Positions 51,067 through 62,852 of a DNA stretch of 64,000 nt are shown piece by piece. Positions within the stretch are counted from its first letter, which is position 1; each line of letters begins with the position of its first letter. The notes below the pieces were generated by a model. The model was not told where the DNA came from. It made no database searches and saw only the letters and a list, made by a program, of their open reading frames with translations. A program made the translations under genes and the position numbers. The stretch comes from Betaproteobacteria bacterium RIFCSPLOWO2_02_FULL_63_19 (lineage in GTDB: Bacteria > Pseudomonadota > Gammaproteobacteria > Burkholderiales > SG8-39), in the NCBI GenBank assembly GCA_001770415.1, contig MEQX01000050.1:15840-79839 (forward strand), in the 5' to 3' direction.

Positions 51067-51411
51067 GATGTTCTCCTGTGGACGTGGGTGCTGCGCCTTG
51101 GCTTCACGATGTTTCGTCCGCGAATTTTGGCTGCTGTTATTGTGCGCAGTCGCGGGGCGGATTGTCAGCAAATTGTAAGCCACTCTTCCACGCGCCTGCC
51201 AGCTCAAGGTCTATCACATTTCGGATCCTGAGAAACAAATAAATGCTTGATTCAAGTCATACCGACCGGATCGGCCGTCCAACAACATCGCCGCAAGTGG
51301 AATATTTTCCAACATCAACGGACAGCGGTACAGCAAAGATCCGTTCGCAGTCATGCGCAGTGGCCAGGCCAGGACGCCGCCTCGATTAGGTTACGTCAAG
51401 GGAGAACTTTA
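51067..51411. other. Divergent intergenic region between pirin and the DUF1566 gene
   Basis: No gene is supported. The middle (about 51170-51260) is AT-richer, as expected for promoters, but no hexamer pair stands out. GGGAG at 51400-51404 is the ribosome site of the DUF1566 gene. Confidence 0.45.
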
Positions 51412-53820
51412 ATGCGGCTTCTCTGGTTGCGACAGATCCGGGTGTCCCGTCTTGCGCGTGTGGTTTGCAGTCTGCTGTTCCTCTATCTTGCGTCGCCCGC
51501 GTGGCCGTTCGATTTCGTCGATAACGGAAATGGAACGATCACGGACACTGCAACGGGATTGCAGTGGATGCGCTGCACGATGGGTGAGCAATGGACCGGA
51601 TCGGGCTGCTCTGGGAGCGCGACTTACTACACTTGGGCGGCCGCGAATGCCCTGAGTTCCACCGTCACTTTCGCCGGCGCGAGCGACTGGCGCCTGCCAA
51701 CCATCGACGAGCTCAAGACCCTCATTGACAGTTCCCACCGGCCGGCGATCGACCCGACGGCGTTTCCAGGAGGGTTGTATTCGGCCCGATACTGGAGTTC
51801 AACCGTCCACTCCGCTTACCAGGACTATGCATGGTACGTCATGTTCGATGTGGGCAATGACACCGCGAACGCGCAGACGGTCAGCATCAATGTTCGCATG
51901 GTTCGCGATCCGGGCACCGGCGGATCGCAAACGGGCAGCACGTTCGATGTCACCGCTGCCGCCAGCGGCGATGCGTCCGCGCTTACCTTGAGCTTGACCT
52001 TGCAAGTCAACGCCGCCGATGTCGGCAGCCAGGGAAGCATCTTTCTCGGAGCATTGGTGCCTGGCGCGGCGCCCGGGGGGGCATGGTTTCTGCACGATGG
52101 CAGCGGCTGGGGGCCATGGAATGACGGGCCACTTACCGCACACTCTTCCGGATCGCTACCGGCGAGCAAGACGATCCAGTTGTTGAGCAACACCGACGTT
52201 TCCGGGCTGGCCGGCACACAAGTCTTTGCGGGCTACGGTCGCAGCGGCGACGAGATGCTCGCGCGTGGGCAAGTCAAACTCGGCTATGTCATCCCCAGTT
52301 CGACGCTTAGCGATGTGGCCTACGCCCAGGGCGCACTGTTCGGCCAGGATGCGTTCTTCAGTTCCGTGAGCGATGCTACGGCGAAGACAACGGGCGCGCT
52401 GTTGCAGGCGATCCTCGCGGTAAATAGCGTGCTTTACACCGACCCGACCGTCTCGCATATCGATACCTTCACCGCGCGCAAGGAGGCGGCCGACAACGCG
52501 CTCAGCATTCTGGAAAAGTACGTGCAGGAAGCCGAGGCCGTTCTCGCCGCGGACACACGTTCCGCACGACGTACCGCCGCACGGGCGCTCAATCCCGAGG
52601 ATGTACTGGCTACGGTTGCGGCCGGCCCGGTGACAGGGCAGCTCAAGACGCTGATGAGCAAATATGGCGTCGGTGCGCGCGAGGCCAAGACGATCCTTGA
52701 CAACGCCATGGCCGGCCTGAGCAGCGAGTACAACAACAGCGCAAATTTCTACGACAAAGCCGCACGTACCGCCCAGTTGGTGAAGGAAGGCTCGGGCCTG
52801 GCTCTGACTCTGGTCGGCACGGCAGCGACCGCCGGTGCGGCGGGGGGAGCGCTGACGCTTGGGGAAGCGACAATAACGCTAATCACCGGCACCGACGGCG
52901 TCGTCAAGGTGACCAAGGCAGGCATGGAATTGATCAAGGGGGCAGACATTCAACTTCCCGACGGTAGCACTGCCAGCGCGGTACTTACGACGTTGTCGGA
53001 CACCTCGGAATTGATTTCCTTCGCCGATTTGAGAAAGTGGGGCGATCTGTCGCAAGCGATCCCGAATGTGGTCAACATCACGCTGAAAACCAACGATGCT
53101 CTGCAGGATGGCGAGCTGAATCTCGGCGCCCATACGTTCAGGCTCAAACCGCTGGCCAAGCCGGTGTCGTCCGCTGTTACCGACAAGTTGGCGCCCCCGC
53201 AAGGCACCATTCCCTCGACGATGACCGGTAAATACCGAATTGAGGGCAAAGCGGTGGAAGTCACCGCACAGCCCCAGCCCGTCAAGGACGTCATCGCGAT
53301 GCTGCCGCCGGAAGACCGGCTGGCGGAGATCGCCAATATCCCGCCCGGCGATGGCGCAAGTGGCAATGGGCAGTTGCAATCGATGACGTTGGTCTACAAC
53401 TACACGCGGCAGGACAAGCCGTTGGTACCCTCCGGCTACTGTTACGGCAGCAGTTCGGCCACCAAGGGTAGCTATTACTTTACAAGCAATACCAGCCAAG
53501 GCGGCTCGAACTGGGGCTACATCACCAGCAGCGGCAGCAGTTTTACCGCCAGTTGCACAAATGCGAACTGTACGACCCAGATTTCGTGCCAGGGGACGAT
53601 CAGCGGCACGACGGGTTCGGCGGGTCTGAGCATGACGTGCACGCAGGGAAGCACCACGCTGAATATCACCGGTACCACGAGTTCCGGCCTGAGTCTGGTG
53701 TCGGGTACCGGCTCCGGGCAAACCTACGATCAGACGCAGGGAAAATATGTGACATGCGACGGATTGAATGTCAGCGGTACCGTGTCCGGCAGCTTCGGGG
53801 TCGGTAGCGCAGCACCGTAG
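51412..53820 (+). CDS. Large exported protein with N-terminal DUF1566 domain
   Basis: An 802-residue secreted or surface protein. A signal peptide (LARVVCSLLFLYLASPAWP) is followed by a DUF1566/Lcl-type domain: FVDNGNGTITDTATGLQW, ASDWRLPTIDELKTLID, YWSSTVHSAYQDYAWYVMF. Next is a beta-rich module (GAWFLHDGSGWGPWNDGPL, IQLLSNTDVSGLAGTQVF, ARGQVKLGYVI) that I recall from other betaproteobacterial exported proteins, then a helical Ala-rich region (about 370-560) and a Gly/Ser/Thr/Cys-rich end with paired cysteines (SCTNANCTTQISC). No anchor or autotransporter domain was seen. The ATG at 51412 sits 7 bases after GGGAG. DUF1566 proteins include adhesins and the lipoprotein Lcl; the function here is unknown. 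Confidence 0.75.
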   Translation: MRLLWLRQIRVSRLARVVCSLLFLYLASPAWPFDFVDNGNGTITDTATGLQWMRCTMGEQWTGSGCSGSATYYTWAAANALSSTVTFAGASDWRLPTIDELKTLIDSSHRPAIDPTAFPGGLYSARYWSSTVHSAYQDYAWYVMFDVGNDTANAQTVSINVRMVRDPGTGGSQTGSTFDVTAAASGDASALTLSLTLQVNAADVGSQGSIFLGALVPGAAPGGAWFLHDGSGWGPWNDGPLTAHSSGSLPASKTIQLLSNTDVSGLAGTQVFAGYGRSGDEMLARGQVKLGYVIPSSTLSDVAYAQGALFGQDAFFSSVSDATAKTTGALLQAILAVNSVLYTDPTVSHIDTFTARKEAADNALSILEKYVQEAEAVLAADTRSARRTAARALNPEDVLATVAAGPVTGQLKTLMSKYGVGAREAKTILDNAMAGLSSEYNNSANFYDKAARTAQLVKEGSGLALTLVGTAATAGAAGGALTLGEATITLITGTDGVVKVTKAGMELIKGADIQLPDGSTASAVLTTLSDTSELISFADLRKWGDLSQAIPNVVNITLKTNDALQDGELNLGAHTFRLKPLAKPVSSAVTDKLAPPQGTIPSTMTGKYRIEGKAVEVTAQPQPVKDVIAMLPPEDRLAEIANIPPGDGASGNGQLQSMTLVYNYTRQDKPLVPSGYCYGSSSATKGSYYFTSNTSQGGSNWGYITSSGSSFTASCTNANCTTQISCQGTISGTTGSAGLSMTCTQGSTTLNITGTTSSGLSLVSGTGSGQTYDQTQGKYVTCDGLNVSGTVSGSFGVGSAAP

Positions 53821-54120
53821 GAGGGCGGGCAGCGCGGCTGCAGATCGATGCGGTCTTTGACAGGTCGGATTGTTTTGGCTCGCGCAACCGGCACGGGTGT
53901 TCTCGTCGGCGCCCGGAGCGCGGCGATCGCTGCCGCCTGCGCGGCGCCGGCGGACCGTGCTGTAAGGTTCCAGTCAGCTTCACCCCGACGATTTGGCCAA
54001 ACAGCCATCTAATTTATACTCGCACCGAAGTTCCAAGCAAGGGTCCGGAAACTGCTGCTGAGAGATACGGTGTTACGCGACCCACTTAAGTTGCCAACTT
54101 GTAGTGCGGGAGAAAATGAG
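53821..54120. other. Intergenic region before the methyltransferase gene
   Basis: No gene is supported. It contains a promoter candidate (53993-54020) and, within the leader, a small stem with arms CACTTAAGTT and AACTTGTAGTG (about 54081-54104) just before the ribosome site of the methyltransferase gene. Confidence 0.45.
53993..54020 (+). promoter_or_regulatory. Probable sigma-70 promoter of the methyltransferase gene
   Basis: TTGGCC (53993-53998) and TATACT (54015-54020) are 16 bases apart, about 100 bases before the ATG at 54121. Confidence 0.4.
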
Positions 54121-54939
54121 ATGACGACGATTCATTGCGTGCGCAGATGGCTTATGGCGATCGCCATTGGCGTGATGGCTGTCTGCGCTCAAGCGCAGGC
54201 GGCGGAGGAATGGAAGCCCACCCTCGGCCAACCCGGCAAGGATGTGATCTGGCTGCCCTCGCCACAACTGCTCGTGGACAAGATGCTCGATATGGCGAGG
54301 GTCACGCCTGCAGATTTCGTCATGGATCTGGGTTCAGGTGATGGCCGCACCGTCATCACCGCGGCAAAGCGTGGCGCGCGTGCGCTCGGCATCGAGTTCG
54401 ACCCGAACATGGTCGGACTGTCCCGACGCAACGCCGCCGCCGCAGGAGTGGGAGACAAGGCGAAATTCGTCGAGGCGGACATTTTCGAGACTGACCTTTC
54501 GCAGGCAACTGTCATCACGCTGTTCCTGCTGCCCGAACTGAACATGAAGCTGCGCCCGAAGTTGCTGGACATGAGGCCCGGCACGCGCATCGTGTCGAAT
54601 TCTTTCGACATGGAAGATTGGGAAGCTGATCAGGTAGCGGACCTCGGATGCGAAACGTACTGCACCGGCTTTCTGTGGATCGTACCCGCCAAAGTGCAGG
54701 GCATATGGCGGCTCGATGACGGCAATCTCGTTCTGCAGCAGAAATTCCAGAAGCTCACAGGCGCTCTCGCGACTGAATCCACCGCTGCCAAGATTACGGC
54801 CGGACGGATGCGCGGAAACGAGATAAGTTTCCTCGTCGGGCGCTCGCAGTACCGGGGACGCGTCGAGGGCGCGGTGATAAAGGGCACCGTTGCGACGGGT
54901 GGCAGCATTACGCGATGGACTGCGCGCCGCCAGACGTGA
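54121..54939 (+). CDS. Class I SAM-dependent methyltransferase with a signal peptide
   Basis: A 272-residue protein with a convincing Sec signal (RRWLMAIAIGVMAVCAQAQAAEE) ahead of a Rossmann methyltransferase domain: motif I VMDLGSGDGRTVITAA, the acidic residue of motif II in ALGIEFDPN, motif III region KFVEADIFETDL, and LFLLPELNMKLRPKLLDM. The C-terminal 90 residues form a separate beta-rich segment (ISFLVGRSQYRGRVEG). If exported, its cofactor SAM would have to be available outside the cytoplasm, which is not expected. The ATG at 54121 is preceded by GGGAGAAAATGAG. Substrate unknown. Confidence 0.8.
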   Translation: MTTIHCVRRWLMAIAIGVMAVCAQAQAAEEWKPTLGQPGKDVIWLPSPQLLVDKMLDMARVTPADFVMDLGSGDGRTVITAAKRGARALGIEFDPNMVGLSRRNAAAAGVGDKAKFVEADIFETDLSQATVITLFLLPELNMKLRPKLLDMRPGTRIVSNSFDMEDWEADQVADLGCETYCTGFLWIVPAKVQGIWRLDDGNLVLQQKFQKLTGALATESTAAKITAGRMRGNEISFLVGRSQYRGRVEGAVIKGTVATGGSITRWTARRQT

Positions 54940-61559: not shown

Positions 61560-62852
61560 ATGGTAGACGCATCCTTTGAACTGGACCTGAGCCTGCAGGT
61601 CGGCAAGTACGACATCCGGAAGCAGCTGGGGCGGGGTGCGACCGGAACGGTCTATCTGGCCGTCGATACCTTCACCGGCGAGGAAGTCGCGCTGAAGGTC
61701 ATCGAGCCGGAGGTGTTCCGTGATCCCCAGTTCGGCACCGTTTACCGCACCCAGTTTCTCAACGAGGCCTCACTTGCCGGCAAACTGCGTCACCCGCACA
61801 TCGTGGCCATTCTAAACGCGGTGGTGCAGGAGGACTCCGGGCACATCGCGATGGAGTGCGTGATGGGGGGGGACCTGTCGCAGCACGCGACACCCGATAC
61901 GCTGCTGCCGATCGCCGATGTCCTGCAAATGATCTTCAAGTGCTGCGGCGCGCTCGAATATGCGTTCAAGGAAGGCATCGTGCACCGGGATATCAAGCCG
62001 GCCAACATCATGATCGCGCAGGGAACGAACGTCAAAATCGCCGATTTCGGCGCCGCCCTGCTGCGCAAGGCGCAGGCCGTGCAGACCGCATCGATCGGGT
62101 CGCCGTATTACATGTCCCCGGAGCAAATGGAGGACAGACCTCTCACGCACCACAGCGACATGTATTGCCTGGGCGTAGCGCTGTACGAGTTGCTGACCGG
62201 CCAAAAGCCGTTCGAGGCCGATACGCTGCAAGGCCTGGTCCACAGGGTCATGAACGAGGCTCCACCGTTGCCGAGCATCGTGCGGCCTGAACTGCCGAAG
62301 GAGGTCGACGGCGTCGTGCTGCGGGCGATGGCCAAGAAACCCGAACAGCGCTATGAGACCTGGGCGGATTTCGCGAGCGAACTTTCGAAACTCGTCAAGC
62401 TCGTGCTGCCGCCCGACGCGATTTCCGACAGCGAGAAATTTGTCGCGCTCAAGCGCGTGGAAATGCTTTCGGTGCTGTCGGACGCCGAGATCTGGGAGTT
62501 GGCCAATGCGGGAACCTGGTCGCGCGTCGCGCCCAGACAAACAATAATCAAGGAGAGCGATCCCGGGAAGAGCTTTTTCTTCCTGGCGCACGGGCAGGTC
62601 AGGGTGACGCGCCACGGGCGCCTGCTGAACACCATCGACGAACGGGAATGTTTCGGCGAGATGGCCTATATCCGCGGCGGCGAACTGCCGCGCCACGCGA
62701 CGGTGGAGTCCGTGAACGACATACTGATCGCGGAATTCGAGCCCGACGCGCTGGCAACCATGACCCTCGGCGCTCAGTATTACCTCATGCGCGCGCTGGT
62801 GAGAAACCTGGTCGACCGCCTGGAACTGGCCAATACGAGGCTGGTGCGGTGA
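61560..62852 (+). CDS. Ser/Thr protein kinase fused to a cyclic nucleotide-binding domain
   Basis: A 430-residue soluble protein. Residues 16-280 form a Hanks-type kinase: glycine loop GRGATG (24-29), Lys 46 (ALKV), catalytic HRDIKPAN (142-149), DFG (162-164) and SPEQ (186-189), so it should be active. Residues about 300-425 form a cNMP-binding fold: TIIKESDPGKSFFFLAHGQV, then the phosphate-binding cassette FGEMAYIRGGELPRHATV with its Glu and Arg. This suggests a kinase controlled by cAMP or cGMP, although bacterial domains of this fold do not always bind a nucleotide. No membrane segment or PASTA repeats. Targets unknown. Confidence 0.88.
   Translation: MVDASFELDLSLQVGKYDIRKQLGRGATGTVYLAVDTFTGEEVALKVIEPEVFRDPQFGTVYRTQFLNEASLAGKLRHPHIVAILNAVVQEDSGHIAMECVMGGDLSQHATPDTLLPIADVLQMIFKCCGALEYAFKEGIVHRDIKPANIMIAQGTNVKIADFGAALLRKAQAVQTASIGSPYYMSPEQMEDRPLTHHSDMYCLGVALYELLTGQKPFEADTLQGLVHRVMNEAPPLPSIVRPELPKEVDGVVLRAMAKKPEQRYETWADFASELSKLVKLVLPPDAISDSEKFVALKRVEMLSVLSDAEIWELANAGTWSRVAPRQTIIKESDPGKSFFFLAHGQVRVTRHGRLLNTIDERECFGEMAYIRGGELPRHATVESVNDILIAEFEPDALATMTLGAQYYLMRALVRNLVDRLELANTRLVR

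Follow-up and report, generated by a model that had tools for sequence, protein, structure and literature searches.

A Family of Predicted Exported Methyltransferases, Encoded in Some Lineages beside an APC Permease: Possible SAM-Dependent Methylation in the Periplasm

Introduction

SAM chemistry is taken as confined to compartments that contain SAM. Among the closest described systems is the Sulfolobus islandicus protein-lysine methyltransferase aKMT (5fa8, 5fad, and 5jwj; NF041081), a single domain of ~160 residues without an export signal, a cysteine pair, or a barrel. The closest solved structure to the protein described here, 5bxy, is an SAH complex of a Salinibacter ruber "RNA methyltransferase", a function assigned by annotation only; it is also a single domain, with a chain that begins at the catalytic domain, and has no barrel. 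FAM173A/B (ANTKMT and ATPSCKMT) are mitochondrial lysine methyltransferases related to aKMT, and possess an N-terminal hydrophobic segment (PMC9006661). Such a segment is shared with our protein, as judged from the published description, but in FAM173 it is an uncleaved mitochondrial anchor, in a compartment for which a SAM carrier is known, and FAM173 has neither a barrel nor a permease partner. With respect to transport, two amino-acid permeases of fungi, Sam3 and Gap4, carry SAM (PMC5177730); they import it, whereas the bacterial permease considered below is a SAM carrier only by proposal, and its closest solved relatives, BasC and the SLC7 light chains, carry amino acids. We found no relevant paper on periplasmic or secreted methyltransferases, or on SAM in the periplasm, in the open-access literature, although this is weak evidence of absence, nor did we find a description of a methyltransferase/permease pair.

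Here, we analyzed a gene within a 64,000-nucleotide stretch of contig MEQX01000050.1 of Betaproteobacteria bacterium RIFCSPLOWO2_02_FULL_63_19 (hereafter, the window). Its product combines a predicted signal peptide with a SAM-binding motif, and we report that in other lineages, and also on two plasmids, the methyltransferase gene lies directly beside a gene for an APC (LAT-type) permease.

Results and Discussion

Export as a Family Trait

The gene, located at 54121-54939 (+ strand), encodes a predicted exported methyltransferase-like protein of 272 amino acids, as indicated by its sequence and by Pfam and PDB matches. It starts with an ATG at 54121, preceded at a distance of 8 bases by a GGGAG ribosome-binding-type site (54108-54112, +), and ends with a stop codon at 54937-54939. 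The predicted signal peptide comprises residues 1-25 (54121-54195, +), with an alternative cleavage after residue 27 (54201); its features are conserved across the family while its sequence drifts. The N-terminus, MTTIHCVRRWLMAIAIGVMAVCAQAQA/AEEW, consists of two arginines, a hydrophobic stretch, and an AQA cleavage-type motif (the signal ends in AQAQA), followed by acidic residues. The protein passed a crude signal-peptide rule of our own scoring (not SignalP), showing the n-region charge, hydrophobic core, and AxA motif of Sec export, which confirms the Sec signal peptide proposed in the first-pass annotation. The sequence VRRWLM at its N-terminus has no flanking Tat consensus (S/T-R-R-x-F/L-L), and the protein was therefore not classed as a Tat substrate. 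Since the next in-frame Met codons lie within the hydrophobic core of the signal (M12 and M19) or within the methyltransferase domain (M55), initiation at any of them would disrupt conserved regions.

Homologues were sampled as 79 loci from genome contigs, and then as more than 60 additional loci from whole genomes. Among 106 homologues, 96 have a net-positive n-region; on average, the segment preceding the hydrophobic stretch carries a net charge of +1.9 and the segment following it -0.4. An AxA-type motif is present in 98 of the 106, which would favor cleavage rather than an uncleaved anchor as in FAM173. The crude rule was passed by 89/106 relatives, as compared with 52/540 other ORFs at the same loci, and the signal-peptide match of the family is not due to chance. 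We extended the scoring to a wider collection of 209 non-redundant members; 8 were too short at the N-terminus to be scored, and the hydrophobicity threshold was passed by 187 of the other 201; among the 14 below it, 13 appeared by eye to be borderline or Tat-like (e.g., SRRTFIV and SRRRLL), leaving a single member, L090, without a signal.

Tat-type signals (SRRTFIV, SRRRLL, and RRRDFL) occur in some distant paralogs whose relatives have Sec signals (L148:14017-15072, L150:13274-14197, L155:10017-10940, and L160:7229-8161). As a general answer, export by Tat of an enzyme already folded and loaded with SAM was considered and rejected, as the strict Tat motif fits only 1/101 close relatives. The retention of export with either Sec or Tat points to a function outside.

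A second and independent sign of export comes from the mature cysteines. The pair C177...C181 (54649-54663, +), a predicted disulfide, is complete in 88/101 sequences of the alignment of close relatives and absent from 13/101, never being represented by one residue, and these relatives have no other mature cysteine; such a two-or-none rule is as expected in an oxidizing compartment. Outside the close family the rule loosens: 15/201 ORFs of the wider set have an odd cysteine count. At four loci (L016, L020, L024, and L058) that carry three consecutive family copies, copies without the pair adjoin copies with it, which means that the pair arose or disappeared within such tandem groups. Taken together, the sequences support the view that the family is sent out of the cytoplasm, mostly by Sec and in some members by Tat.

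The SAM Site and the Catalytic Domain

The aKMT/FAM173-type seven-beta-strand methyltransferase domain extends over about residues 41-191 (54241-54693, +), according to Pfam, PDB matches, and the structural model. The Pfam match is to Methyltransf_25 (PF13649; E 5e-9, 37.1 bits against a cut-off of 27), and together with motif I, the post-I acidic residue, and the fit of the Rossmann-like model to SAH complexes, it assigns the protein to the class I (seven-beta-strand) SAM methyltransferases. The first-pass annotation described motif I, DLGSGDGR (residues 69-76; 54325-54348, +), as intact, and the alignment bears this out: D69, L70, G71, G73, D74, and G75, as well as the post-I acidic residue E92 (54394-54396, +), are invariant in 101/101 sequences. 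The motif reads DLGSGDGR in 182 of the 209-member set, and the remainder are minor variants. In human FAM173B, a conserved motif-I Asp is needed for activity (PMC5828452). In close pairs, dN/dS in the methyltransferase domain was 0.04-0.09, indicating that the SAM site is under purifying selection.

Conservation is not confined to the SAM loop; it also covers the LLPxxN..LRP and PGTR regions, which are common to aKMT. The predicted structure (pLDDT 94) matches 5bxy (Z 26.3; 1e-40 and 48% identity by sequence) and aKMT 5fad (Z 25.4 over 154 residues), both solved with SAH, whereas methyltransferases outside the aKMT-type group match at Z 17.8 and below. The catalytic domain shared with aKMT is also detected by sequence (1e-28), with motif I and the LLxxxN and PGTR regions in common; the score against the aKMT equivalog NF041081 is 106.9 bits, below its cut-off of 200. 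The sequence data thus point to an intact SAM site, and the exported protein may bind SAM and catalyze methyl transfer. The paradox of an exported protein with a SAM site, raised in the first-pass annotation, is real and is seen across the whole family.

The C-Terminal Barrel

Structure prediction gave a C-terminal eight-stranded beta barrel of avidin-like fold at residues 194-272 (54700-54936, +). The barrel predicted alone (pLDDT 93.5) superimposes on streptavidin 3wzo over 84 residues, with an rmsd of 1.6 A and Z 13.5. A Foldseek search with the barrel by itself gave no match below E 0.001, and a profile search of PDB chains gave no avidin up to E 10, so that the avidin likeness is a fold resemblance only; for want of homology by sequence, we do not count the barrel as a member of the avidin family. 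Pfam searches with 62 barrels gave weak, scattered matches. The fold hints at a ligand-binding role without establishing it.

Coupling to an APC Permease

An adjacent permease is absent from the window gene and from most of the first 79 loci, in which the shared neighbors were just tandem copies, TctC-type binding proteins, and scattered genes; the link to the permease emerged only with wider sampling. In other lineages, representing many families, an APC permease gene lies directly beside the methyltransferase gene, on the same strand and in either order. This permease belongs to AA_permease_2 (Pfam), and is LAT/BasC-like, its matches to BasC (6f2g) and the SLC7 exchangers scoring about 1e-50. 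In a quickly built tree of 204 members, the window protein falls within a clade of 141 that has full support and also contains 11 permease-adjacent members in several places.

Of 150 genomes sampled from the order, 28 contain the permease (E <= 1e-60), and all 28 also carry the methyltransferase; 4 genomes carry the methyltransferase alone and 118 carry neither. The Fisher P for this co-occurrence, 2e-26, is overstated, since the genomes are related. The families f68, f73, and f79 each hold both double-positive and double-negative members, a pattern that favors the two genes having been acquired or lost together. At least 22 of the 28 double-positive genomes have them side by side. Exactly one permease (E <= 1e-40) per genome, adjoining the methyltransferase, was found in 13/13 genomes tested; as these had been picked for adjacency, the single copy is the informative part. 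In a sample of the phylum, 4 strong permease matches (E < 1e-100) all fell in methyltransferase genomes, and 4 weaker ones (38-41% identity) all fell elsewhere. Among 72,556 plasmids, a near-full-length methyltransferase is present on two, with an adjoining permease on both: on pCO-6 of Chelatococcus it lies downstream of the methyltransferase gene, and on pDG3-1g of Agrobacterium it lies upstream, overlapping that gene by 17 bases. These plasmid genes are annotated merely as "methyltransferase domain-containing protein" and "amino acid permease". These results support, at the level of sequence, a coupling of the methyltransferase and the permease.

The window genome carries three exported family members, on contigs C50 (which includes the window), C38, and C16, and one permease copy on contig C27, unlinked to any of the three. 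Copy numbers reach 16 per genome in the window's family and 17 in the order, often as tandem arrays with diverged paralogs side by side.

Proposed Function and Alternatives

Our best explanation, which we hold tentatively and at somewhat less than even chance, is that the protein is a periplasmic SAM-dependent methyltransferase to which the permease supplies SAM; export, the SAM site, the cysteine pair, and the coupling are drawn from the sequences, and the rest we infer. The enzyme would be exported via Sec and cut after the AQA motif, and the C177-C181 disulfide would stabilize it in the periplasm. The aKMT/FAM173-type domain would serve for catalysis, and the small barrel may act in binding the substrate or some ligand. 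As its partner, the enzyme would have a single APC (LAT-type) permease, whose gene adjoins that of the enzyme in many lineages and lies on a separate contig in the window genome; this permease would supply periplasmic SAM, most simply by SAM/SAH exchange. Such an antiport would both feed the enzyme and clear its inhibitor, SAH. The mitochondrial carrier does likewise for matrix methyltransferases. SAM is an amino-acid analogue and is carried by Sam3 and Gap4, which makes an amino-acid permease plausible as a SAM carrier. The methyl acceptor is most likely an amine, e.g., a protein lysine on envelope proteins, because of the homology to aKMT and FAM173.

A working methyltransferase outside the cytoplasm, with its donor delivered by a transporter, was absent from the options in the first-pass annotation. 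We favor it on account of the intact SAM site under purifying selection together with the coupled permease; the role outside the cytoplasm that the annotation did list is retained. Several points stand against our explanation: the solved relatives of the permease carry amino acids, the window gene and most of the first 79 loci lack a permease next to them, and 4 genomes of the order sample have the methyltransferase without the permease. The near-universal export, the strictly selected SAM site, and a permease that occurs only with the enzyme in the sampled order make periplasmic SAM testable. The broader proposition, that bacteria possess extracytoplasmic SAM-dependent methylation by a secreted family (16-17 paralogs in some genomes) with a dedicated SAM/SAH-exchanging permease, is possible, although we consider it rather more likely to be wrong than right; if true, it would represent a new layer of envelope modification and provide a candidate bacterial SAM exporter.

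The kinship of the permease to the amino-acid exchangers BasC and the SLC7 light chains would also fit an exported methyltransferase whose permease transports the compound to be methylated, or the methylated product (an amino acid or amine), with SAM coming from leakage or lysed neighbors, and the selected SAM site is in keeping with this as well. We regard it as unlikely. SAM, a highly polar and chemically labile molecule, passes poorly through membranes (PMC8728568), so that an unaided supply looks weak. Furthermore, up to 17 diverse copies per genome face at most one or two permeases, which a shared donor fits better than one shared acceptor.

Slightly less probable still is a non-methylating protein whose ligand is SAM, SAH, or some other adenosyl or amino-acid compound, which it senses or captures for the permease. 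Export, the tie to a permease, and a barrel of ligand-binding-type fold would suit such a role; against it, the LLPxxN..LRP and PGTR regions are conserved as in the lysine methyltransferase aKMT, and APC permeases are not known to depend on binding proteins. Action in the cytoplasm, where SAM is abundant, through an inward-facing anchor such as the uncleaved N-terminal membrane segment of mitochondrial FAM173 (PMC9006661), through a downstream start, or through activity before export, is very improbable, as the positive charges precede rather than follow the hydrophobic stretch, the next Met codons are placed as described above, and the family has Sec or Tat signals almost without exception and an all-or-none cysteine pair. 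The inward anchor and the pre-export activity offered in the first-pass annotation are thus both disfavored, the latter also by the fact that Sec substrates cross the membrane unfolded.

Arrays and Neighboring Genes

A "fused MFS/spermidine synthase" membrane protein (NF037959) is encoded within arrays of the families f70, f75, and f105, at L151:9215-10933, L152:6409-8019, L153:8394-10160, and L154:5158-6753. The array loci include G355:C11:416448-436143 (L148 and L149), G397:C2:288281-308044 (L150 and L151), G385:C4 (L153), and G426:C16 (L154). This protein (E <= 1e-60) was found in 11/150 genomes of the order, all of them array-bearing, and is a possible third component there; this SpeE-like protein was rejected as a general third part, being restricted to these three families with arrays.

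At the end of contig C27 of the window genome (G000), a truncated methyltransferase beside the permease was considered and rejected, since the ORF directly after the permease (L170:1-507, -) is instead SET-domain-like; judged by eye only, it would be another type of lysine methyltransferase.

In the window, the methyltransferase gene is a single copy locally, between genes for an Lcl-domain protein and a rubrerythrin-like protein. The former, just upstream (51247-53820), is a large and probably exported protein whose C-terminal domain matches Pfam Lcl_C; it also has an extended tail rich in Gly, Ser, and Thr. Mutually related protein kinases with a cyclic-nucleotide-binding-like tail are encoded near the methyltransferase gene both in the window (61560-62852) and in L007 (5932-7221), directly after it in the latter, which probably reflects local synteny.
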